Shown here one piece after another: positions 5,114 through 16,001 of a DNA stretch of 64,000 nucleotides. The notes under the pieces were generated by a model, which had not been told where the DNA came from, did not search any database, and saw nothing but the letters and a program-made list of their open reading frames with translations. The DNA comes from Herbiconiux sp. L3-i23 (GTDB lineage: Bacteria; Actinomycetota; Actinomycetes; Actinomycetales; Microbacteriaceae): the NCBI RefSeq assembly GCF_023734115.1, contig NZ_AP025737.1, positions 868,001-932,000 of the forward strand. The letters are read 5' to 3'. How positions within the stretch are numbered: the first letter of the stretch is position 1; each line of letters opens with the position of its first letter. A program made the translations under genes and the position numbers.

Positions 5114-6205
5114 ATGCGACGCGTCCTCATCCTCGGTTCGACCGGCTCGATCGGCACGCAGGCGCTCGACGTCATCGCCGCGAACCGCGACCGCTTCGAC
5201 GTCGTCGGGCTCGCCGCCGGCAGCAACGCCGACGCGTTGGCCGCTCAGGCCGAGGCCTTCGGGGTTCGCGCCACCGCGCTCGGCGCCGACGACGCGGTGC
5301 GGCTCGTGCACGACGTCGACGCGGACGTCGTGCTCAACGGCATCACCGGGTCCGTCGGCTTGGGGCCGACCCTCGCCGCACTCGAGGCGGGTCGGACGCT
5401 CGCCCTCGCCAATAAGGAATCGCTGATCGTCGGCGGGTCCCTCGTCACCGATGCGGCAGCGCCGGGACAGATCGTGCCCGTCGACTCCGAGCACTCGGCG
5501 ATCGCCCAGTCCCTGCGATCCGGCACCGACGCCGAGGTGCGCCGACTGGTGCTCACCGCCTCGGGCGGCCCGTTCCGCGGGCGCACCCGCGACTCGCTCG
5601 AGGGCGTCACGCCCGCCGATGCGCTCGCCCACCCGACCTGGGACATGGGCCTCGTGGTCACCACCAACTCGGCGACGCTCGTGAACAAGGGGCTCGAAGT
5701 CATCGAGGCGCACCTGCTCTTCGACATCGACTACGACCGCATCGATGTCGTCGTGCATCCGCAGTCGATCGTGCACTCGATGGTCGAGTTCGTCGACGGC
5801 TCCACCATCGCCCAGGCCTCGCCGCCCGACATGCGCCTGCCCATCTCGCTTGGCCTCGACTGGCCGCATCGGGTGAGCGGAGTCGGCGCGCCCCTCGACT
5901 GGACCCGCGCCTCGTCCTGGACCTTCGAGCCGCTCGACGAGGCCGCGTTCCCGGCTGTGGCGCTGGCGAAGCGCGTCGGGCGTGCGGGCGGCACGTTCCC
6001 CGCCGTCTACAACGCGGCGAACGAGCAGGCGGTCGCGGCCTTCCACGCGGGGCGCATCGGATTCCTCAGCATCGTCGAGATCGTCGAAGCGGTCGTCGAC
6101 GCGCACTCGGAGCCCGACGGCGCCCTGTCGCTCGAGCTGCTGCTGCAGACCGAAGCCGAGGCCCGCGCGGCCGCCGACGCCTTCATCGCGGCCGCCACCC
6201 GCTGA
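5114..6205 (+). CDS. dxr: 1-deoxy-D-xylulose 5-phosphate reductoisomerase
   Basis: A 363-residue enzyme of the MEP isoprenoid pathway that converts DXP to 2-C-methyl-D-erythritol 4-phosphate with NADPH. The N-terminal nucleotide-binding motif [11 protein letters not shown] (8-18) is clear, followed by [11 protein letters not shown], the metal and substrate region VDSEHSAI, and the C-terminal helical domain with [12 protein letters not shown]. Length is slightly short of the usual 380-400. The ATG follows AGTGACAGGATGAGGGC. In mycobacteria dxr, the site-2 protease and ispG are adjacent; here the other two lie at 12.1 and 17.6 kb on the same strand, separated by unrelated genes. Two palindromes follow the gene. 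Confidence 0.97.
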
Positions 6206-6236
6206 CCCCGACGCCCTGCGCCCGGAGCCGAGCACT

Positions 6237-6292
6237 GAGGTGCTCAGTTCTGCGGGTGTCGGCGCTCCCCAACCCGCAGATCTCGGCACCTC
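6237..6292. repeat. 56-bp palindromic element D1
   Basis: The ends pair as GAGGTGC / GCACCTC and an inner stem pairs as CTGCGGGT / ACCCGCAG, separated by small unpaired bulges. It has the same 56-bp length as D2 and aligns with it end to end. It lies between the convergent genes dxr and the first kinase. Confidence 0.75.
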
Positions 6293-6309
6293 GATGTCGC
6301 TCAGGTGGT

Positions 6310-6365
6310 GAGATGCCCAGTTCTGCGGGTGTTTTCGCCTGAGCACCGGCAGAACTGGGCACCTC
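6310..6365. repeat. 56-bp palindromic element D2
   Basis: This element has a perfect 13-bp stem TGCCCAGTTCTGC / GCAGAACTGGGCA, extended by GAG/CTC at the tips, around a 22-base loop. The left half is nearly identical to that of D1. It is followed within 20 bp by the stop codon of the kinase on the other strand, so it may end transcription from both sides, although it lacks a T-tract. Confidence 0.75.
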
Positions 6366-6382
6366 GGCGTGACGCGCGCGCG

Positions 6383-8179
6383 TCAGTTGTCGTCGCTGTT
6401 GCCCGAGCCGCTGTTGTCGGATCCGCCGTTGCCGTTGCCGCTGTTGCCATTGCCGCTGTTGCTGCCGCCGAACCAGTCCTCGAACTGGTCGCGGAGGCCC
6501 TGGCCGATCTCGTCGAGGCGGTCCTGCAGGCCCGACTGCTGCTGCTCCTGCTCCTCCTCGAGGCGCTGCTGCTCCTCCTCCAGCTGACGCTGGCGCTCCG
6601 CCTCCTCCTCGAGGCGGCGCTGCTCCTCCTCGGCGGCGATCGCGGCGTCGACGTCGGTGCGGACCAGCGCGATCGCGTCGAGCATGTTCCGGTAGCGGGC
6701 CGAACTGACCTGGTCGGCGGTGGCCGCCAGGTCGAGGTGCGTGGACAGCGTGGTCAGAGCGTCGGAGGCCGCCGCGTAATCGGGCGTGCTCGCCGCGGTG
6801 GATACCGCGAGCACGTCGTTCTGCAGGGTCTCCTGGGCGTCGTACGCGAACCCGTCGCCCCCGACGCTCTCCTGCAGTGCGGCGAGGTGCCCGCCGATCG
6901 AACCGTCGACGACCGGGTAGGCCGGCACGGGCGGGCGCGCCGGCGCGACCGCCTGCTGGATGACCGGCCACAGCGCGACGCCGGCGCCGGCGAGGAGGGC
7001 GAGCACGACGACGACGATCGCGAAGACCTTGCGCTTGCGGCGGCGCGGCACCGCGGGCGGGGGCTCGGGAGTCCATTCGCGCGGACGGAAGCCCTCGTCG
7101 TCGGCGGGCAGCACCTGCGTCCGATCGCCCAACGCGTCCGGCAGCACCGACGCGTCCGGCAGCACCGACGCGACCGGGAAGACCTCGGTCGGATCGACCG
7201 CCCCGATGGGGAACACGTCGGTGACGGGCGACTGGGCAGGGAGGACGCGCGTGCGTTCGGGCGCTCCCGCTCCCAGGACCTCGGTCGGGTCGGTGAGCGG
7301 CGGTGGGGCGACCGGAAGCACCGATGTCGCCGCGTCGGAGGCGTAGGGAGCGGGCGAGTTCCAGCGACGCAACGCCCGCTCGACCCCTGCGGCGCTCGGC
7401 CGCTCGGAGGGATCGAGCGCCGTCATCGCCTCGATCAGAGCGCTGTCCGCGTCAGTCAGCCCGTCGGGGATCGGCGGCCCGGACATCGTGCGCGCCACCG
7501 CCGATTCGGCCCGCGCCCCACCGAACGGGCGGACGCCGGTCAACGCCTCGATCAGCACCAGCCCCAGCGAGTAGATATCGCTCGCGGTGCCGACGTGGGC
7601 GCCCGTCACCTGCTCCGGGCTGAGGTACGCGGCGGTTCCGATCACGGCGCCGGCCGAGGTGAGGTGCGACTCGTCGACGATGCGGGCGATGCCGAGGTCG
7701 GCGAGCTTCGCGTGGAGGAGGCCGTCGTCGCCGCGGAAGACGAGGATGTTCTCGGGCTTCAGATCGCGGTGCACGATCCCGCGGGCGTGGATGTACGAGA
7801 GTGCACCCGCCACCTCGGCGACGAGGTCGGCGATCTGCTCGGCCTCGAGCGTGTCCGAGCGCAGCAGGGTGCCGAGGTCGCTGCCGTCGACGAGTTCGAG
7901 GACGAGGTAGGCGGGGCTGCCGTCGTCGCCGTCCGCCGCGTCGTGCAGCGTCACGAGGGCGGGATGGTTGAGGCTCGCCAGGGTGCGGATCTCGGAGCGC
8001 ACCCGGCGCAGATCGCGGGCCTCGGCGACATCGGGCCGGAACAGTTTCACCGCGACCTCGCGCCCGAGGCGCGCGTCGTAGGCGCGATGCACCTCGGCCA
8101 TCCCGCCGCGGCCGACTACCGGGCCGAGCGTGTAACGCCCGCCCAGGGTCCGCGCCGGGAGCGATCTCGTGTCTGCCAT
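6383..8179 (-). CDS. Membrane Ser/Thr protein kinase 1 with fused coiled-coil ectodomain
   Basis: A 598-residue Hanks-type kinase. The kinase domain (about 14-275) has the Gly-loop GRGGMAEV (23-30), Lys45, HRDLKPEN with Asp139, DLG (161-163, replacing DFG) and GTAAYLSPEQ. A linker (276-380) carries six T-x-V-[LF]-[PG] motifs. One membrane segment spans about 385-407. Outside are the motif YPVVDGSIG (421-429), a 60-residue helical module (about 452-513), a long Glu/Gln-rich coiled coil (514-548) and a Gly/Asn/Ser tail. The module is the same one that kinases 2 and 3 carry on separate lipoproteins. ATG start at complement 8177-8179; the gene is last in a five-gene unit. Ligand and substrates are unknown. 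Confidence 0.9.
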   Translation of the reverse strand: MADTRSLPARTLGGRYTLGPVVGRGGMAEVHRAYDARLGREVAVKLFRPDVAEARDLRRVRSEIRTLASLNHPALVTLHDAADGDDGSPAYLVLELVDGSDLGTLLRSDTLEAEQIADLVAEVAGALSYIHARGIVHRDLKPENILVFRGDDGLLHAKLADLGIARIVDESHLTSAGAVIGTAAYLSPEQVTGAHVGTASDIYSLGLVLIEALTGVRPFGGARAESAVARTMSGPPIPDGLTDADSALIEAMTALDPSERPSAAGVERALRRWNSPAPYASDAATSVLPVAPPPLTDPTEVLGAGAPERTRVLPAQSPVTDVFPIGAVDPTEVFPVASVLPDASVLPDALGDRTQVLPADDEGFRPREWTPEPPPAVPRRRKRKVFAIVVVVLALLAGAGVALWPVIQQAVAPARPPVPAYPVVDGSIGGHLAALQESVGGDGFAYDAQETLQNDVLAVSTAASTPDYAAASDALTTLSTHLDLAATADQVSSARYRNMLDAIALVRTDVDAAIAAEEEQRRLEEEAERQRQLEEEQQRLEEEQEQQQSGLQDRLDEIGQGLRDQFEDWFGGSNSGNGNSGNGNGGSDNSGSGNSDDN

Positions 8180-8192
8180 CTGGGTCGGAACT

Positions 8193-8762
8193 TTACGCGC
8201 TCGCGGGTGTCGCCGTCGGCTTCGGCGTCGTCCCGCCGCCCGGTGCGGGGGTCTTGGTGGGAGCGGGCGTCGCCGGGGCGGTCGGTGCCGGGGTCGGTGT
8301 CGTCTCCGGCTCCTCCGGTTCCTCCTCGGGATCATCGGAGGGCTCCTCGGTGGGCGGTGCCTCCTCGGCGGGCGGCTCGACGGGATCGGCGGGAGCCTCG
8401 TCCTCGTCGTCGCTCGGGGCGGGAGGCGGCGTCAACTGCGCCGCGAGGAAGGCGCGGACCGACTCGACCGCCGCGGCGATGCGCGCGTACCGGTCCTCGT
8501 GGACCTCGCCGCGCACCTTCGCGGCTTCGAGCTCCGCCGACACCTGGTCGAGCGACGCGAGCGCTGCCGCGAGGTCTCCGCCTGCGGCCTCGTCGGACAC
8601 TGCGAGCACCGCCTGCTGCAGCCGTTCGGCTGTGCGGGTTTCGATCGCCGGCGCGGCGGCGCACCCGCTCAACGCGACGGAAGCGGCGAGCACGGCCGCC
8701 ACGGCGACCCGCCTCGCGGCGGCCCTCGTGAATGCGGCCTTGCGCATGACGGCCCGGTTCAC
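8193..8762 (-). CDS. Lipoprotein carrying the kinase ectodomain module (partner of kinase 2)
   Basis: A 189-residue predicted lipoprotein. The signal ends with the lipobox LSGC, so the mature protein would be acylated on that Cys. After it comes a helical module of about 60 residues (beginning RLQQAVLAVSDEAA, ending SVRAFLAAQL) that aligns without gaps to the ectodomain of kinase 1. The C-terminal half is a Pro/Glu/Thr-rich stalk (PTEEPSDDPEEEPEEPE and so on), probably wall-spanning. The GTG start at complement 8760-8762 overlaps the stop of kinase 2 by 4 bp, implying translational coupling; an internal ATG at complement 8745-8747 is an alternative. I infer it is a detached sensor part of kinase 2. 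Confidence 0.75.
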   Translation of the reverse strand: MNRAVMRKAAFTRAAARRVAVAAVLAASVALSGCAAAPAIETRTAERLQQAVLAVSDEAAGGDLAAALASLDQVSAELEAAKVRGEVHEDRYARIAAAVESVRAFLAAQLTPPPAPSDDEDEAPADPVEPPAEEAPPTEEPSDDPEEEPEEPETTPTPAPTAPATPAPTKTPAPGGGTTPKPTATPASA

Positions 8763-10129
8763 GGCTGCACACTCCGCTGCAACTCGTCGAGCAGGTCTCC
8801 GAGCTCGCCGTCAACGGCCGGATACTGCGGGGGAGTGAGCGTCTCGGGTGCCATCAGGTTCGCGATGACGAGTGCCGCGATCGCCGCGGCGAGCAGCACC
8901 GCGACGATGATGAGGACCACGTGCAGCGCCCGCCGCGATCTCGGGGCGGCCGCGGTGGTGGTCGGGCCGGTGGGGGAGCCCGGCGCGGCCGGCGTCGTCG
9001 CCGTGCCATCGGGGGCGACGGCGACCTGGTCGGTGGGTGCCGGCACCGGCGCGCCGTGCATCACCGCGGTGGAATCGGTGGTCGCGACGACCTCCGCGAA
9101 GGCGGCGTCGAGGCGCGCGGTGTCATCGGCGATCTCGTGCACGTCGCCCGCACTCGGAGCGTCCGCGATGCCGACGTCGACAGCGGTGTCGTCGTCCTCG
9201 GAATCGCGGTCGGTCGAGCCCGGCAACGGCGTGGCCGCCGTCGCCTGCAGGTCGGACATCGCGGGCATCGCCCGCGTGTGCACGACGGGGGGACCGCCCG
9301 CGATGAGGGTCGTCTCGACCTCGGCGGCGCTGATCCTCGACGTGGGGTCGAGACGCGTCATGGCCTGCAGCAGCACCTCATAGTCGGGATCGACGTCCGC
9401 GGGGACGAGCGGCTGCGCGACGGTCCGTGCGGCGGCCTGCTCCGCGGGTGTCCCCGCGAACGGCCGCTCCCCGGTGAGGCACTCGAAGAGCACCAGTCCG
9501 AGCGCGTACACGTCCGCCGCCGTTCCGACGGTGCCGCCGCCGACCTGCTCGGGGCTGAGGTAGGCCACGGTGCCGAGGATGCTGCCCGCGGTCGTCAGAT
9601 GCGTCGCGTCGGCCATCCGCGCGATACCGAGATCCGCCAGCTTGGCGTGCAGCACCCCGTCGTCGTCGCGTCGGATGAGGATGTTCGCGGGTTTGACGTC
9701 GCGGTGGACGATGCCCTTCGCATGGATGTGGGCGAGGGCGCCGGCGATCTGGGCGATCACCGCGGCGGCGTCATCGGTGCTCAGCGGGCCTGCGCGCAGC
9801 AGGGACGCGAGGTGCTCGCCGTCGACGAGTTCCATGACGAGGAACGGCGTCGATCCGTCGTCGCTCAACGCCGCGTCGTGGAGGGTGACGAGACTCGGGT
9901 GATTGATGCTGCCGAGCATCTTCATCTCGGCTTCGACACGGCGCGAGTCGCTCGCCTCGGCGACGTCGCTGCGGAAGATCTTGATCGCGACATCGCGGTC
10001 GAGGAGCAGGTCGTGCGCCTGATAGACGGTCGCCATGCCGCCCGTGCCGATCGCCGGGCCGAGCCGGTAGCGCCCACCGCCGATGATCTCACCGCTCTCG
10101 CTGTCGGTGTCGGGCCGGGTGCTGGTCAC
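8759..10129 (-). CDS. Membrane Ser/Thr protein kinase 2
   Basis: A 456-residue Hanks-type kinase with GTGGMATV Gly-loop (28-35), Lys50, HRDVKPAN with Asp144, DLG at 166-168 and GTVAYLSPEQ. After an acidic, Ala/Thr-rich linker there is one membrane segment (about 405-424, LHVVLIIVAVLL), and the chain then ends only some 30 residues outside, immediately after YPAVDGELGDLLDELQRSV. The rest of the ectodomain seen in kinase 1 is encoded by the next gene, whose start overlaps this stop by 4 bp. The start is GTG at complement 10127-10129. It is downstream of kinase 3 and its lipoprotein. Activity is expected because all core catalytic residues are present; the target is unknown. Confidence 0.9.
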   Translation of the reverse strand: MTSTRPDTDSESGEIIGGGRYRLGPAIGTGGMATVYQAHDLLLDRDVAIKIFRSDVAEASDSRRVEAEMKMLGSINHPSLVTLHDAALSDDGSTPFLVMELVDGEHLASLLRAGPLSTDDAAAVIAQIAGALAHIHAKGIVHRDVKPANILIRRDDDGVLHAKLADLGIARMADATHLTTAGSILGTVAYLSPEQVGGGTVGTAADVYALGLVLFECLTGERPFAGTPAEQAAARTVAQPLVPADVDPDYEVLLQAMTRLDPTSRISAAEVETTLIAGGPPVVHTRAMPAMSDLQATAATPLPGSTDRDSEDDDTAVDVGIADAPSAGDVHEIADDTARLDAAFAEVVATTDSTAVMHGAPVPAPTDQVAVAPDGTATTPAAPGSPTGPTTTAAAPRSRRALHVVLIIVAVLLAAAIAALVIANLMAPETLTPPQYPAVDGELGDLLDELQRSVQP

Positions 10130-10240
10130 GGTCGGGGTCGCTTTCGCTTTCGGCGCTGAGCATCGCCGTTTTTCAGGTGGAGATCAATCGTACGGAAGGG
10201 AGCCGGGAAGTTGTCGGGAGTGCCGATGACGCGCGCCGTG

Positions 10241-10759
10241 TCACCCCTTCTTTCCGTGCCCCTTGCCGTTGCCCTTGTCGTTCCCTTTCCCCGGTTCGGG
10301 CGCGGGCTCGGGGGCGGGAGGCGCGGGATCCTCGGCCGCCGCGCGATCGAGTTCGGCCTGCATCTGCTCGAGCCGAGCGGCGAGCTCGGCCGCCTCGCGC
10401 TCCTGCGCCGCCGCGGCGTCCGCTTCGGCGGCGACTCGCGCCGCTTCCGCCTCGGCGGCCGCCCGGGCATCGAGCTGAGCGCGGACGTCGGCGATCGCGT
10501 TCCGGATCTGGCGGTACCGCGACGGAGTGACTCCGTCGTCGTCGGCGGCGCGTTCGAGGGCGGCCAGTGCCTCGTCGAGGGCGGCGCGGGCGGCCGTCTC
10601 GTCGCCGGCGCTCGCGGCCGTCGCGGCCTCGAGGACCTCGGCGCGCAAGCCCTGGGTCACCTCGGAGCGGAGGTCGGGCGCGGGGGCGCAGCCGGCGAGG
10701 AGACCGATCGCCGCGACGACGACGGCGGCGGGCATCCATCGGCGCATCGATGCGCTCAC
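10241..10759 (-). CDS. Lipoprotein carrying the kinase ectodomain module (partner of kinase 3)
   Basis: A 172-residue predicted lipoprotein with signal and lipobox LLAGC. The mature part starts CAPAPDLRSEV and continues with the same helical module found in kinase 1 and in the other lipoprotein (conserved VL, AA, GD, SRYRQI, AIADVRAQL). It then forms a long Ala/Glu/Arg coiled coil and a Pro/Gly/Lys tail (GKGNDKGNGKGHGKKG) that may bind the wall. The GTG at complement 10757-10759 overlaps the kinase 3 stop by 4 bp. The downstream gap to kinase 2 is 111 bp. Function is inferred from the arrangement: an outer-surface sensing arm for kinase 3. No catalytic motif is visible. Confidence 0.75.
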   Translation of the reverse strand: MSASMRRWMPAAVVVAAIGLLAGCAPAPDLRSEVTQGLRAEVLEAATAASAGDETAARAALDEALAALERAADDDGVTPSRYRQIRNAIADVRAQLDARAAAEAEAARVAAEADAAAAQEREAAELAARLEQMQAELDRAAAEDPAPPAPEPAPEPGKGNDKGNGKGHGKKG

Positions 10760-11970
10760 GGCTCGATCACCGACTCGAGTCGTTCGAAGGACTCGCCGAG
10801 CTCACCGTCGATCGCGGGATAGGAGATCGCGGGTGTCGTCGGTGCAGCGGGCGCCGGCGTCGACAGAGCGGGAATCACGAGTCCGGCCGCGACGAGCAGC
10901 ACGGCGACGGCGCCGCCGAGCAGAAGCGTCCGTCTCGATGGCCGGCGAGATCGGCCTGTCCGCGACTCGGGCTGCCCGATCTCGGTGTCGTCAGCCGCGT
11001 CGGTGTCGACGGTCGACGGGGGAGCGAGGCCAACACCGGCCAGGCGACGCGTGGGCGCTTCGGCGGCGGCCGTCGCGACCGGATCGTCCGCCGTCGTGTC
11101 GGCTGCCGCCGTGGTGCGGGCGCCGACGACCGCTGCCGTGGGGCGCGGCGACGTCCAGGATCGGAGTGCGGTGCGGACGGTGGCGGCATCGGGACGGTCG
11201 GCCGGATCCGTCGCGGTCATCGCGCGCAGTAGCGCCTCGTCGGCGGCGGACAGCCCGGCGGGGAGAGCGGGGCCGCGCACCAGGCGCGCCGCCATGCTCT
11301 CGGCTTCGGTGCCGGGGAAGGCGCGGGCGCCGGTGAGCGCCTCGATCAGCAGCAGGCCGAGCGAGTAGACGTCGCTCGCCGTCGTGACGCGGTCGCCGCG
11401 CGCCTGCTCGGGGCTGAGGTAGGCGACCGTGCCGACGATGCTGCCGCCCGCGGTGGCCCGAGTGGCGTCCATGAGGTAGGCGATGCCGAGATCGGCGAGC
11501 GTTCCGCGGGGAGTCCCGTCGACGTGCCGCACGAGCACGTTGCCGGGTTTCACATCGCGGTGCACGACGCCGCGGAAGTGCGCGTGCGCCAGCGCAGCCG
11601 CGACGTCGGCGACCACGGACACGAGCTCCTCGATGGGAAGCGACCCGGCGGTGCGCGCGAGGTCCGCCCCGTCGACGAGCTCCATCACGATGTACGGGTC
11701 GTCGCCGTCGTCGCCGAACCCCGCGTCGTGCAGTGTGACCAGCGATGGGTGCGTCAGGGCGGCGAGGAGGGTGACCTCAGATCGCAGCCGGCGTAGCGTC
11801 TCGCCGTCGGACCGCCGATCGCGCAGCACCTTGACCGCCACCTCGCGGGGGATGCGCGTGTCCTGCGCGCGGAAGACGTCCGCGGATCCGCCGCGGCCGA
11901 TCCGTTCGACCAACCGGTAGCGACCGGCGATGAGGGTTCCGCCGCGCGGCTCGATCTCGATGTCGGTCAC
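10756..11970 (-). CDS. Membrane Ser/Thr protein kinase 3
   Basis: A 404-residue Hanks-type kinase with Gly-loop GRGGSADV, Lys47, HRDVKPGN with Asp139, DLG (160-162) and GTVAYLSPEQ. The kinase domain is followed by an Ala/Thr-rich linker, a basic stop-transfer stretch (RSRRPSRRT) and one membrane segment (about 350-370). It ends with a short external tail carrying YPAIDGELGESFERLESV, the same juxtamembrane motif as in kinases 1 and 2. Start is GTG at complement 11968-11970; no ATG is available nearby. It is the first gene of the inverted kinase block and is divergent from rseP across 138 bp, so the block's promoter should lie there. Confidence 0.9.
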   Translation of the reverse strand: MTDIEIEPRGGTLIAGRYRLVERIGRGGSADVFRAQDTRIPREVAVKVLRDRRSDGETLRRLRSEVTLLAALTHPSLVTLHDAGFGDDGDDPYIVMELVDGADLARTAGSLPIEELVSVVADVAAALAHAHFRGVVHRDVKPGNVLVRHVDGTPRGTLADLGIAYLMDATRATAGGSIVGTVAYLSPEQARGDRVTTASDVYSLGLLLIEALTGARAFPGTEAESMAARLVRGPALPAGLSAADEALLRAMTATDPADRPDAATVRTALRSWTSPRPTAAVVGARTTAAADTTADDPVATAAAEAPTRRLAGVGLAPPSTVDTDAADDTEIGQPESRTGRSRRPSRRTLLLGGAVAVLLVAAGLVIPALSTPAPAAPTTPAISYPAIDGELGESFERLESVIEP

Positions 11971-12108: not shown

Positions 12109-13443
12109 GTGGATTTCCAAGCCGTGCTGCTCTATGTACTCGGCGTGCTCGTCATCGTCATCGGGCTCGCCGTGTCGATCGCGCTGCACGAGATCGGCCA
12201 CCTGATCCCCGCGAAGCTGTTCGGCGTCAAGGTGACGCAGTACATGATCGGCTTCGGCAAGACCCTCTTCTCCTTCCGCCGGGGCGAGACCGAGTACGGC
12301 CTGAAGGCCATCCCGCTCGGCGGCTACGTCGCGATGATCGGCATGTATCCGCCCACGGCTCCCGGCGGCACCGCCCGCAACGCGACGACGGGTGTGTTCA
12401 ACCAGCTCGTACAGGACGCCCGCGACACCAGCGCCGCCACCATCGGCGAGGAGGAGGACGGTCGCACCTTCTACCGGCTCTCCGTCTGGAAGCGCGTCGT
12501 CATCATGCTCGGCGGCCCGTTCATGAACCTTGTGCTCGGCATCCTCTTCTACGCCGTCGTGATCATGGGCTTCGGCCTGCCGATGGCGTCGACGACCATC
12601 GGCACCGTCAGCGAATGCGTCCTCCCCTCGACGAGTGATCGCCAGACCTGCGAATCGGCCGACCCCGAGGCGCCGGGGCTCGCCGCCGGCATCCTGCCGG
12701 GCGACCGCATCGTCAGCATCGACGGCGAGCAGATCGACAGCTGGACGCAGGCCACCGCACTGATCCGCGAGTCGCCGGGCGACCCGCTCACCGTCGTCGT
12801 CGAGCGCGGCGGAAGCGAGGTAACCCTCGAGGCGACGCCGCTGCTCACCGAGCGCTACAGCACCGACGCCGACGGCAACGTGATCACCGATGCCGACGGC
12901 GAACCGGTCACCACCGAGGTCGGAGTGCTCGGGATCGGCAGCCAGGAGCAGCTCGTGCCGCAGCCGGCGACCGAAGTGCTGCCCGCCGTCGGGAACAACA
13001 TCACCGCCGTCGCCGGCATCATCCTGAACCTGCCGCAGCGGCTCATCGATGTCGCGAACGCGGCGTTCGGACCCGGCGACCGCGATCCCGACGGGCCCGT
13101 GAGCGTCGTCGGCGTGGGACGTCTGGCGGGTGAGATCGCGAGCCTCGACACCATCCCCGTCGCCTCGCGGATCTCGAGCATGCTGGGCATCCTCGCCTCG
13201 CTGAACATCGCGCTCCTCGTGTTCAACCTGGTGCCCCTCGTCCCCCTCGACGGCGGCCACGTCGTCATCGCGCTGTGGGAGGGAGTGAAGCGCGGGTTCG
13301 CGAAGCTCTTCCGGCGGAAGGACCCGGGCCCCGTCGACGCGGCGAAGCTGATGCCCGTCACCTTCGCGGTCGTCCTCATCCTCGGCGCGATGAGCGCCCT
13401 GCTCATCTACGCCGACATCGTCAAACCCATCAGTGTTCTCTAG
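12109..13443 (+). CDS. rseP: Site-2 membrane protease, RseP/Rip1 family (M50)
   Basis: A 444-residue intramembrane zinc metalloprotease. The HEIGH motif (His27, Glu28, His31) lies in the first membrane helix and the second metal motif is in PLVPLDGGHV near residue 385. A PDZ domain sits between, with PGLAAGILPGDRIVSIDGEQ about 185-204. Family members cut single-pass anti-sigma factors and other membrane stubs after a first cleavage. The start is GTG at 12109, placing HEIGH close to the N-terminus as usual. It belongs to the dxr-rseP-ispG group of other actinobacteria but is isolated here. Its last codons and stop lie in a 16-bp tandem repeat. Anti-sigma substrates are not in this window. Confidence 0.93.
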   Translation: MDFQAVLLYVLGVLVIVIGLAVSIALHEIGHLIPAKLFGVKVTQYMIGFGKTLFSFRRGETEYGLKAIPLGGYVAMIGMYPPTAPGGTARNATTGVFNQLVQDARDTSAATIGEEEDGRTFYRLSVWKRVVIMLGGPFMNLVLGILFYAVVIMGFGLPMASTTIGTVSECVLPSTSDRQTCESADPEAPGLAAGILPGDRIVSIDGEQIDSWTQATALIRESPGDPLTVVVERGGSEVTLEATPLLTERYSTDADGNVITDADGEPVTTEVGVLGIGSQEQLVPQPATEVLPAVGNNITAVAGIILNLPQRLIDVANAAFGPGDRDPDGPVSVVGVGRLAGEIASLDTIPVASRISSMLGILASLNIALLVFNLVPLVPLDGGHVVIALWEGVKRGFAKLFRRKDPGPVDAAKLMPVTFAVVLILGAMSALLIYADIVKPISVL

Positions 13444-15536: not shown

Positions 15537-15624
15537 CTGACCAAATCAAGGAAAAAGCGGTGTCGAGTCACACGTTCATGCCGATCCGGGGCCGTCAGAG
15601 GTGAAATCTCCTTGATTTGGTCAG
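15537..15624. repeat. 88-bp palindromic element A1
   Basis: It has perfect 16-bp terminal arms CTGACCAAATCAAGGA / TCCTTGATTTGGTCAG. The non-palindromic core contains GAGTCACACGTTCATGC followed by GATCCGGGGCC and is shared with A2. It is first of four 88-bp elements in the gap between the response regulator and the SHOCT gene. Confidence 0.85.
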
Positions 15625-15650
15625 TCGCCCAGCGCGGACAGGTTGAGTGG

Positions 15651-15738
15651 CTGACCGAATGCAGGAGAAATTGGTCGGGTAGGCCCCGAATCGGGCAGTT
15701 TTCCGGGTTTCGGGCGAAGAACTCCTGCATTTGGTCAG
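15651..15738. repeat. 88-bp palindromic element B1
   Basis: The arms CTGACCGAATGCAGGAG / CTCCTGCATTTGGTCAG pair with one mismatch. The core contains CCCCGAATCGGGCAG followed by TTTTCCGGGTTTCGGG and can form a second inner stem (CCCGAA/TTCGGG). It has the same length as A1 but different arms and core, 26 bp downstream of A1. Confidence 0.85.
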
Positions 15739-15753
15739 CCGCCCGCCATGCCT

Positions 15754-15841
15754 CTGACCAAATCAAGGAGAAAGCAGGTTCGAGTCACACGTTCATGCGG
15801 ATCCGGGGCCATCGGCGCCGTGATCTCCTTGATTTGGTCAG
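15754..15841. repeat. 88-bp palindromic element A2
   Basis: A second copy of element A with perfect 18-bp arms CTGACCAAATCAAGGAGA / TCTCCTTGATTTGGTCAG. The core is nearly identical to that of A1. It lies 15 bp after B1, so the A-B pair repeats with a period of 217 bp. Confidence 0.85.
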
Positions 15842-15867
15842 TCACCCCGTCCGCACGCGGCGGGTGG

Positions 15868-15955
15868 CTGCCCGAATGCAGGAGAAATTGCTCGGGCAAG
15901 CCCCGAATCAGGCAGTTTTCCGGGTTTCGGACGAAAAACTCCTGCATTCGGTCAG
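15868..15955. repeat. 88-bp palindromic element B2
   Basis: A second copy of element B. The arms CTGCCCGAATGCAGGAG / CTCCTGCATTCGGTCAG have one mismatch, at a different position from B1. Its distance to A2 is 26 bp, the same as between A1 and B1. Core differences from B1 are scattered single bases. Confidence 0.85.
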
Positions 15956-15956
15956 C

Positions 15957-16001
15957 CACTCGGGGGAGTGAGGGTGGCGGAGCTACTCCCGGGTGAGTAG
16001 C
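15957..16001. promoter_or_regulatory. Two short palindromes upstream of the SHOCT gene
   Basis: CACTC-GGGG-GAGTG (15957-15970) and GCTACTC-CCGGGT-GAGTAGC (15982-16001) are perfect dyads sharing ACTC...GAGT half-sites, about 90 bp before the start of the small membrane protein. They could be binding sites of the response regulator encoded 450 bp upstream. This is an inference from position and symmetry. Confidence 0.35.

Follow-up and report, generated by a model that had tools for sequence, protein, structure and literature searches.

A Ser/Thr kinase sensor probably divided between overlapping kinase and lipoprotein genes in Herbiconiux and related actinobacteria

Background

How is the sensor of a membrane kinase built when the kinase itself ends a few residues outside the membrane? 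This question is raised by five minus-strand genes at positions 6383–11970 of a 64,000 nucleotide (nt) stretch of Herbiconiux sp. L3-i23 (contig NZ_AP025737.1, positions 868,001–932,000), referred to here as the window. They are transcribed in the order kinase K3, lipoprotein 3, kinase K2, lipoprotein 2 and kinase K1. A sequence-only reading of the locus had described three Ser/Thr kinases with a YP motif outside the membrane and two lipoprotein genes whose GTG starts overlap the kinase stops by 4 base pairs (bp), and the motif, the positions and the overlaps read the same here. Taken together, the evidence indicates that the sensor is probably a four-helix domain divided between two genes, the kinase gene and the lipoprotein gene. 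The gene layout, the homology and conserved pairing of the parts, their fusion and permutation, and the four-helix fold of two natural fusions were computed in this work.

Results

The features of the locus, all on the minus strand, are as follows.

6383–8179, minus: K1 kinase with the whole predicted four-helix ectodomain fused, then a long charged helix and a Gly/Asn/Ser-rich end (Pkinase match; fused orthologs)
6575–6844, minus: K1 predicted helices 2–4 (26–44, 48–67, 73–114), the last extending as a long helix (AlphaFold2; homology to the lipoprotein module)
6863–6919, minus: K1 predicted helix 1 segment, YPVVDGSIGGHLAALQESV (AlphaFold2 helix 4–19)
8193–8762, minus: lipoprotein 2, with signal peptide, LSGC lipobox, three-helix module and Pro/Thr/Glu-rich C-terminus (reading of the open reading frame)
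8394–8663, minus: mature N-terminal part of lipoprotein 2, predicted helices 2–4 of the bundle (module profile; profile alignment)
8759–8762, minus: GTGA, 4 bp overlap of the K2 stop and the lipoprotein 2 start (sequence reading)
8759–10129, minus: K2 Ser/Thr kinase, with one membrane helix and the short tail YPAVDGELGDLLDELQRSVQP at its end (Pkinase match; tail read)
8762–8824, minus: extracytoplasmic tail of K2, interpreted as bundle helix 1 (aligned tails; K1 model)
10241–10759, minus: lipoprotein 3, with signal peptide, LAGC lipobox, three-helix module, Ala/Glu-rich helix and Gly/Asn/Lys-rich C-terminus (module profile A1)
10421–10690, minus: mature N-terminal part of lipoprotein 3, predicted helices 2–4 of the bundle (module profile; profile alignment)
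10756–10759, minus: GTGA, 4 bp overlap of the K3 stop and the lipoprotein 3 start (sequence reading)
10756–11970, minus: K3 Ser/Thr kinase, with one membrane helix and the short tail YPAIDGELGESFERLESVIEP at its end (Pkinase match; tail read; orthologs in the genus)
10759–10821, minus: extracytoplasmic tail of K3, interpreted as bundle helix 1 (aligned tails A3; match to helix 1 of the K1 model)

The C-termini of K2 and K3 lie 21 residues past the start of the YP motif. The first codon of both lipoprotein frames is a GTG, placed so that the gene shares 4 bp with the end of the kinase gene, whose stop is TGA. This GTG is presumed, and only presumed, to be the true start, because an alternative ATG lies a few codons downstream in both genes. 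The overlapping start codon is itself ATG in 54 of the 115 split pairs of relatives described below. K1 is taken to start with the ATG at 8179, and would be longer if the in-frame ATG at 8335 were used.

The three kinases belong to the Hanks type, with Pfam Pkinase scores of 165.6 (K1), 170.9 (K2) and 136.5 bits (K3) against a cut-off of 31.7. Catalytic activity is predicted from the motifs VAVKLF and HRDLKPEN in K1, VAIKIF and HRDVKPAN in K2, and VAVKVL and HRDVKPGN in K3; each kinase has DLG in place of DFG. The closest solved chains of the K2 kinase are PknA and PknB. The kinase domain thus resembles that of the PASTA kinases PknB and Stk1, but the window kinases do not have PASTA repeats. 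They are not members of the PASTA-kinase family, because their scores with the NCBIfam model NF033483 (245.9, 263.6 and 255.7 bits) are below its cut-off of 450. A PASTA or PknH-type ectodomain gave no Pfam match at an expect value (E) ≤ 1 in the five proteins, and no curated Pfam or NCBIfam family matches the ectodomain of the window above its cut-off, in agreement with the sequence-only reading. Lipoproteins 2 and 3 are predicted as such from the lipobox patterns LSGC and LAGC. In 110 proteins of split pairs the last 30 residues of the lipoprotein contain 25% G, 13% K, 13% N and 12% D; such ends perhaps extend into the cell wall or bind it. Among plasmid records, 786 match the kinase; identity is below 60% in all of them, and in none does the match extend over 80% of the query.

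The lipoprotein module was compared with the K1 ectodomain at two levels. When lipoprotein 3 is used as query in its own genome, the K1 ectodomain is found at E = 8.9e-11 and lipoprotein 2 only at 0.009. Such single-sequence searches are weak evidence because the latter value lies beside that of an unrelated protein at 0.006. This protein, near 807 kb of the genome, reads as a solute-binding-like protein and was rejected as a family member. Alignment of the module profile A1 (19 rows) with the fused-ectodomain profile A2 (9 rows) by hhalign gives 98.5% and E = 2.1e-15 over 77 columns; the highest value among 40 column shuffles is 1.1%, and reversal of the profile gives 3.6%. This profile comparison shows homology between the module of the lipoproteins and the ectodomain of K1, as had been noticed by eye.

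An AlphaFold2 model of the K1 ectodomain, made with 77 natural relatives, has a mean predicted local distance difference test score (pLDDT) of 94.7 and a predicted template modelling score (pTM) of 0.83. It displays four helices, at residues 4–19, 26–44, 48–67 and 73–114. Residues 1–19 are the stretch retained by K2 and K3, and residues 26 onward correspond to the lipoprotein module. A second natural fusion, from a genus designated g8, has a membrane segment, no kinase and another tail type. Its model shows the same plan (pLDDT 93.4, pTM 0.84; helices 5–17, 27–45, 49–67 and 77–97). Because both models of natural fusions share this plan, the simplest view of the sensor is a four-helix bundle with a cut behind its first helix, in which the kinase would carry helix 1 and the lipoprotein helices 2–4. 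The profile alignment and the K1 model agree with the earlier proposal of a single ectodomain design, present as one chain in K1 and divided in K2 and K3. The YP motif had been placed just outside the module; in the K1 model this motif is the start of helix 1 and thereby part of the four-helix domain, not a mere tag in front of the module. A hydrophobic stripe of four positions, spaced 4, 3 and 4 apart, is present in the tails of all 115 split kinases that were chosen by their lipoprotein only. The linker from the end of the membrane stretch to the tail has a median length of 11 residues (range 3–24, 114 pairs).

The distribution of the module was determined with profile A1 in 299 genomes of the family, 396 of the order and 296 of the class, drawn from larger groups, and module counts take only matches at 1e-8 or better. 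At this threshold 32 of the 396 order genomes match, in three families (f1, f6 and f9). In the class search 10 of the 296 genomes match, all of them inside the order. Loci were read for family matches to about 1e-10 and for all order matches listed; identical modules were counted once. Five weaker matches (E about 1e-4 to 1e-7) were read and rejected as family members. From the letters we take four of them (L358, L359, L360 and L362) to be ribosomal protein bS20 and the fifth to fall within a heavy-metal-type domain.

A scripted classification of 141 distinct modules gives 115 split pairs with the exact 4 bp overlap, 10 kinase fusions and 16 modules without a kinase by the rules of the script; no other spacing occurs among the 115 split pairs. 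The 16 cases and three further loci were then read individually; with the edge fragment L127 left out, as it belongs to another record, the total is 143. These 143 are matches of a profile made from split lipoproteins, and very divergent or fused forms may be missed. In the final count 120 of the 143 distinct modules are in kinase-lipoprotein pairs with the same 4 bp overlap. The other 23 comprise 10 fused to a kinase, five fused to a membrane segment without a kinase, three located ahead of the kinase, one tandem copy and four unpaired. In two of the 120 overlap pairs the kinase frame is broken upstream or cut by the contig end, and the tail and overlap are intact. The same pair is thus present in relatives, and the triplication is neither a local oddity nor is the design special to the three genes in which it was first noticed. 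Lipoproteins without kinases, which the sequence-only reading had named as evidence against its proposal, amount to the four of 143 modules that have no adjacent kinase.

A separate scan used a DNA pattern for YPxVxGxLGxxLxxLQxxV, in which neither a stop nor an overlap is specified, over the genome_contigs collection (one genome per species, 84,980 species). It gives at least 118 loci and at least 122 distinct matches; among the matches listed, 121 are short tails with the 4 bp overlap and one is a fusion. The downstream frame of more than 80 residues carries the module at E < 1e-5 in 116 of 116 cases among the matches listed. The 80 names given for these loci include Cryobacterium, Naasia, Clavibacter, Frigoribacterium, Herbiconiux and Microcella, which we take to be Microbacteriaceae, together with others. 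They also include Arthrobacter, Pseudarthrobacter and Paenarthrobacter, presumably Micrococcaceae, and Cellulomonas, Actinotalea and Pengzhenrongella, presumably Cellulomonadaceae. An outer kinase sensor built from two overlapping genes appears to be present in many soil and plant actinobacteria.

Several natural variants show the parts in other arrangements. In L153 and L155 the lipoprotein gene precedes the kinase gene; the tail is kept, with LEHDV or LEHEV replacing LQxSV. Genome G152 has the two genes on separate contigs, the kinase ending in LPSVDGDLGVHLEELMEEVSP with a TAG stop and without an overlap. In genus g8 the bundle including helix 1 is a stand-alone single-pass membrane protein, and the kinases read there have no tail (loci L168, L169, L171, L173 and L174; L297, L298, L300, L301 and L310). 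These variants, as read from the sequences, are consistent with the tail being part of the bundle regardless of gene position. In addition, one locus (L138, genome G071) has a kinase gene followed by two tandem lipoprotein genes with the module in both. In L036/L008 a frameshift or an assembly error breaks the reading frame of the K3 kinase at a point before the tail; tail and lipoprotein are intact.

The direction of change was read from a midpoint-rooted tree of 123 kinase domains. All 20 rows from the triplicated locus of the genus, i.e., the K1, K2 and K3 groups, form one clade with support 99/99, which bears out the proposed triplication. The nine fused K1 rows form one clade (100/94) beside the K2 and K3 rows, and fused K1 orthologs are found in all nine genus genomes read. 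The fused rows are nested among split rows; the fused label needs two changes on the tree, and the starred branches force two. Because of this nesting, K1 is likely a fusion derived from a split ancestor after the triplication, and the split arrangement is the common and likely the older state. The sequence-only reading had the sensing arm "released" from the kinase as a lipoprotein; the tree reverses this direction.

Discussion

With respect to docking in the split pairs, sensing, signal and substrates, we infer a mechanism that may be outlined as follows. The kinase would pass the membrane once and expose on the outside only its short tail, as helix 1. Its partner, the lipoprotein from the overlapping gene, held by its lipid in the same membrane, would supply helices 2–4 and a long or disordered arm that reaches into the wall. 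Docking of tail and lipoprotein would complete the bundle. A change at the bundle or the arm, due to the state of the wall or to a ligand, might then alter dimerisation and autophosphorylation of the kinase. The 4 bp overlap may couple translation of the two genes and provide about equal amounts of the proteins in one place, and K1 would be a covalent version, descended from a split ancestor once the locus had been triplicated. We lean, with less assurance than for the divided bundle itself, towards the wider proposal of a receptor kinase family whose sensor is obligatorily assembled from two translationally coupled proteins, one helix from the kinase and three from the lipoprotein. Its pieces would have been fused, swapped and separated several times, with K1 as a natural single-chain receptor.

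Several observations weigh against a bundle assembled from two proteins. In the K1 model, helix 1 is based on an alignment of 15 fused rows. The models cover single natural fused chains, and docking in the K2 and K3 pairs is presumed. In lipoprotein 2 only about 8 residues join the lipid anchor and helix 2, which limits the stance of the bundle on the membrane. Four of the 143 modules are without an adjacent kinase; three of these genomes carry a proper pair elsewhere, and the fourth has a kinase with a tail, without an overlap, on another contig. The five genus g8 kinases that were read have no tail, and their ends are Gly/Asn/Lys-rich like those of the lipoproteins. The second kinase fusion, L175, is on a long branch and its place in the tree is uncertain. 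Operons of high-GC genomes often have 4 bp overlaps, and the overlap alone proves only joint expression.

The proteins might be operon partners only, with a shared pathway and a module common by descent, the tail being a leftover or binding elsewhere, e.g., to a second kinase copy. That binding of tail and lipoprotein is deduced leaves room for this explanation, and so do the genus g8 kinases, which lost the tail and live without it. The correlation of tail and module distances beyond the kinase tree is no help to the divided bundle and fits this explanation too. Its partial r is 0.20 (at most 0.14 in 500 permutations), yet 34 kinase-domain windows of equal length have a mean of 0.10 and reach 0.23; the value lies within these controls, and tail-module co-evolution was rejected as evidence. 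However, the models of natural fusions place this tail in the bundle as helix 1, at least two kinase fusions and one membrane fusion join the two parts in that order, and the tail is retained in split kinases wherever these were read. We consider an operon-only relationship unlikely. A conserved tail could also reflect the DNA, if its codons hold the ribosome-binding site and the start of the lipoprotein gene. In 103 of 205 pairs a core Shine-Dalgarno word precedes the overlapping start by 4–13 nt, compared with 90 (standard deviation 2.8, maximum 98, 200 runs) after synonymous recoding with the codon usage of the window kinases, and the Q-x-S residues are lost from the tail where the lipoprotein precedes the kinase (L153, L155). 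But the word is present in only half of the pairs and its excess is small, and the fused, reversed and unlinked versions, which have no start codon to accommodate in the tail, retain the hydrophobic stripe. With this weak excess only, a ribosome-binding site was rejected as the cause of the tail, and this explanation is very improbable.

A further proposal is that the lipoprotein is a brake or scaffold that keeps the kinase fixed in its state or location, with signals entering elsewhere. The Gly/Asn/Lys/Asp-rich ends of the lipoproteins suit wall attachment as well as sensing, and no ligand pocket was identified. This possibility, which we rate as rather doubtful, nevertheless retains the division of the bundle between the two proteins.

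No description of an overlapping kinase-lipoprotein gene pair was found in the open-access literature, in keeping with the same remark in the sequence-only reading. The best precedent for a kinase ectodomain that is common to lipoproteins is PknH of Mycobacterium tuberculosis, where one extracytoplasmic domain is fused to the kinase and is also found in the lipoproteins LpqQ, LprH, LppH and LpqA (PMC4118811). Unlike the bundle described here, the PknH-type domain is whole in each protein and has another fold, with two disulfides and a cleft, and the available part of that paper describes no division of the domain between overlapping kinase and lipoprotein genes (PMC4118811). Two other systems are the best precedents for signalling gated by a lipoprotein. 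In GlnH-GlnX-PknG of Corynebacterium glutamicum a lipoprotein feeds an actinobacterial Ser/Thr kinase pathway; it differs in that a solute-binding lipoprotein acts via a separate four-pass protein and the kinase has no tail in the wall space, as far as the available part of the source goes (PMC9769921). In QseE/QseG of Escherichia coli the lipoprotein is from the kinase operon, and the available part of the source states that QseG attaches to the periplasmic region of the kinase, which depends on QseG for activity (PMC6075780). That system differs in having a histidine kinase and an outer-membrane lipoprotein. To our knowledge, it has no domain shared with fused versions.

The nearest Pfam family to the module is FIMAH (PF22888), which is matched by 24 of 78 module rows at E ≤ 0.01 (best 4.2e-8). 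The match spans about positions 13–79 of the 81 profile positions and omits the first helix. The module of one relative, L083, passes the FIMAH cut-off (28.5 vs 24.8 bits). The proteins of the window are below it: lipoprotein 2 scores 14.9 bits, the K1 ectodomain has no match at 0.01 and the lipoprotein 3 module none at E ≤ 5. FIMAH sequences were found in 26 of 198 order genomes at 1e-7, and they align in register with the module family at 44% (E = 2.4e-4; shuffles at most 0.9%, reversed below 3%). The fused-only profile A2 reaches 3.6% with FIMAH, no better than the reversed control. The module thus resembles FIMAH at the edge of detection, and it is called FIMAH-like and not assigned to FIMAH because the window's own proteins fail the cut-off.

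Fold comparison gives generic bundles. Foldseek finds no match at E ≤ 0.001 for the K1 or the g8 fusion model. In a second look Z values go up to 13.4, and a Z near 13 is within the range that helical bundles reach through a common arrangement. The highest match of the K1 model there is the C-terminal four-helix bundle of a GH92 mannosidase (PDB 7nsn, 1321–1411; Z 13.4, root-mean-square deviation 2.3, 92 residues). That bundle differs in being part of an enzyme and whole in one chain, and its authors, in the available part of their paper, could assign no function to it (PMC10167667).

Ribosomal protein bS20 was also considered. Membership was rejected, the best score being 22.4 bits (L085) and that of the lipoprotein 3 module 11.1, below the Pfam cut-off of 29.5. 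Homology was likewise set aside; a profile match among solved chains at E = 0.0024 with partial fold overlap is attributed to a common helical hairpin. Matches of the module profile to bS20 recur across many genomes, at E of about 1e-4 to 1e-7 (e.g., L358, L359, L360 and L362), and the two share the helical hairpin with the pattern GD..A..AL...LD.A...G.I.

The findings point to a wide and apparently undescribed receptor-kinase family in environmental and plant-associated actinobacteria, with an anatomy that can be tested. The natural fusions are built-in controls, with one-chain and two-chain bundles side by side within a single genome. Should the split be functional, one could remove the lipoprotein, swap it or add it from outside, which would give a route to the activation of bacterial Ser/Thr kinases across the membrane. 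A role would also be suggested for FIMAH-like bundles, a common domain whose function is left open in the available part of the structural paper (PMC10167667).

Flanking genes and repeats

The locus lies between two plus-strand genes. The left neighbour (5114–6205) is presumably dxr, and the right neighbour (12109–13443) is presumably a gene for an RseP-like protease, both as read from their translations. Homologs of dxr and rseP both adjoin the pair in 11 of the 20 longer loci, and the genomic place is therefore old too.

Positions 6236–6366, between dxr and K1, contain two palindromic repeats of approximately 58 nt that are 76% alike. The repeat core CAGTTCTGCGGGTGT, with at most one mismatch, has 30 occurrences in the genome compared with 0 for the reversed control. 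The segment looks like a repetitive extragenic palindromic (REP)-type element or a terminator. A tandem pair of 209 nt repeats is found at positions 15537–15962. The two copies are 85% alike with a spacing of 217, and several nested inverted repeats accompany them.

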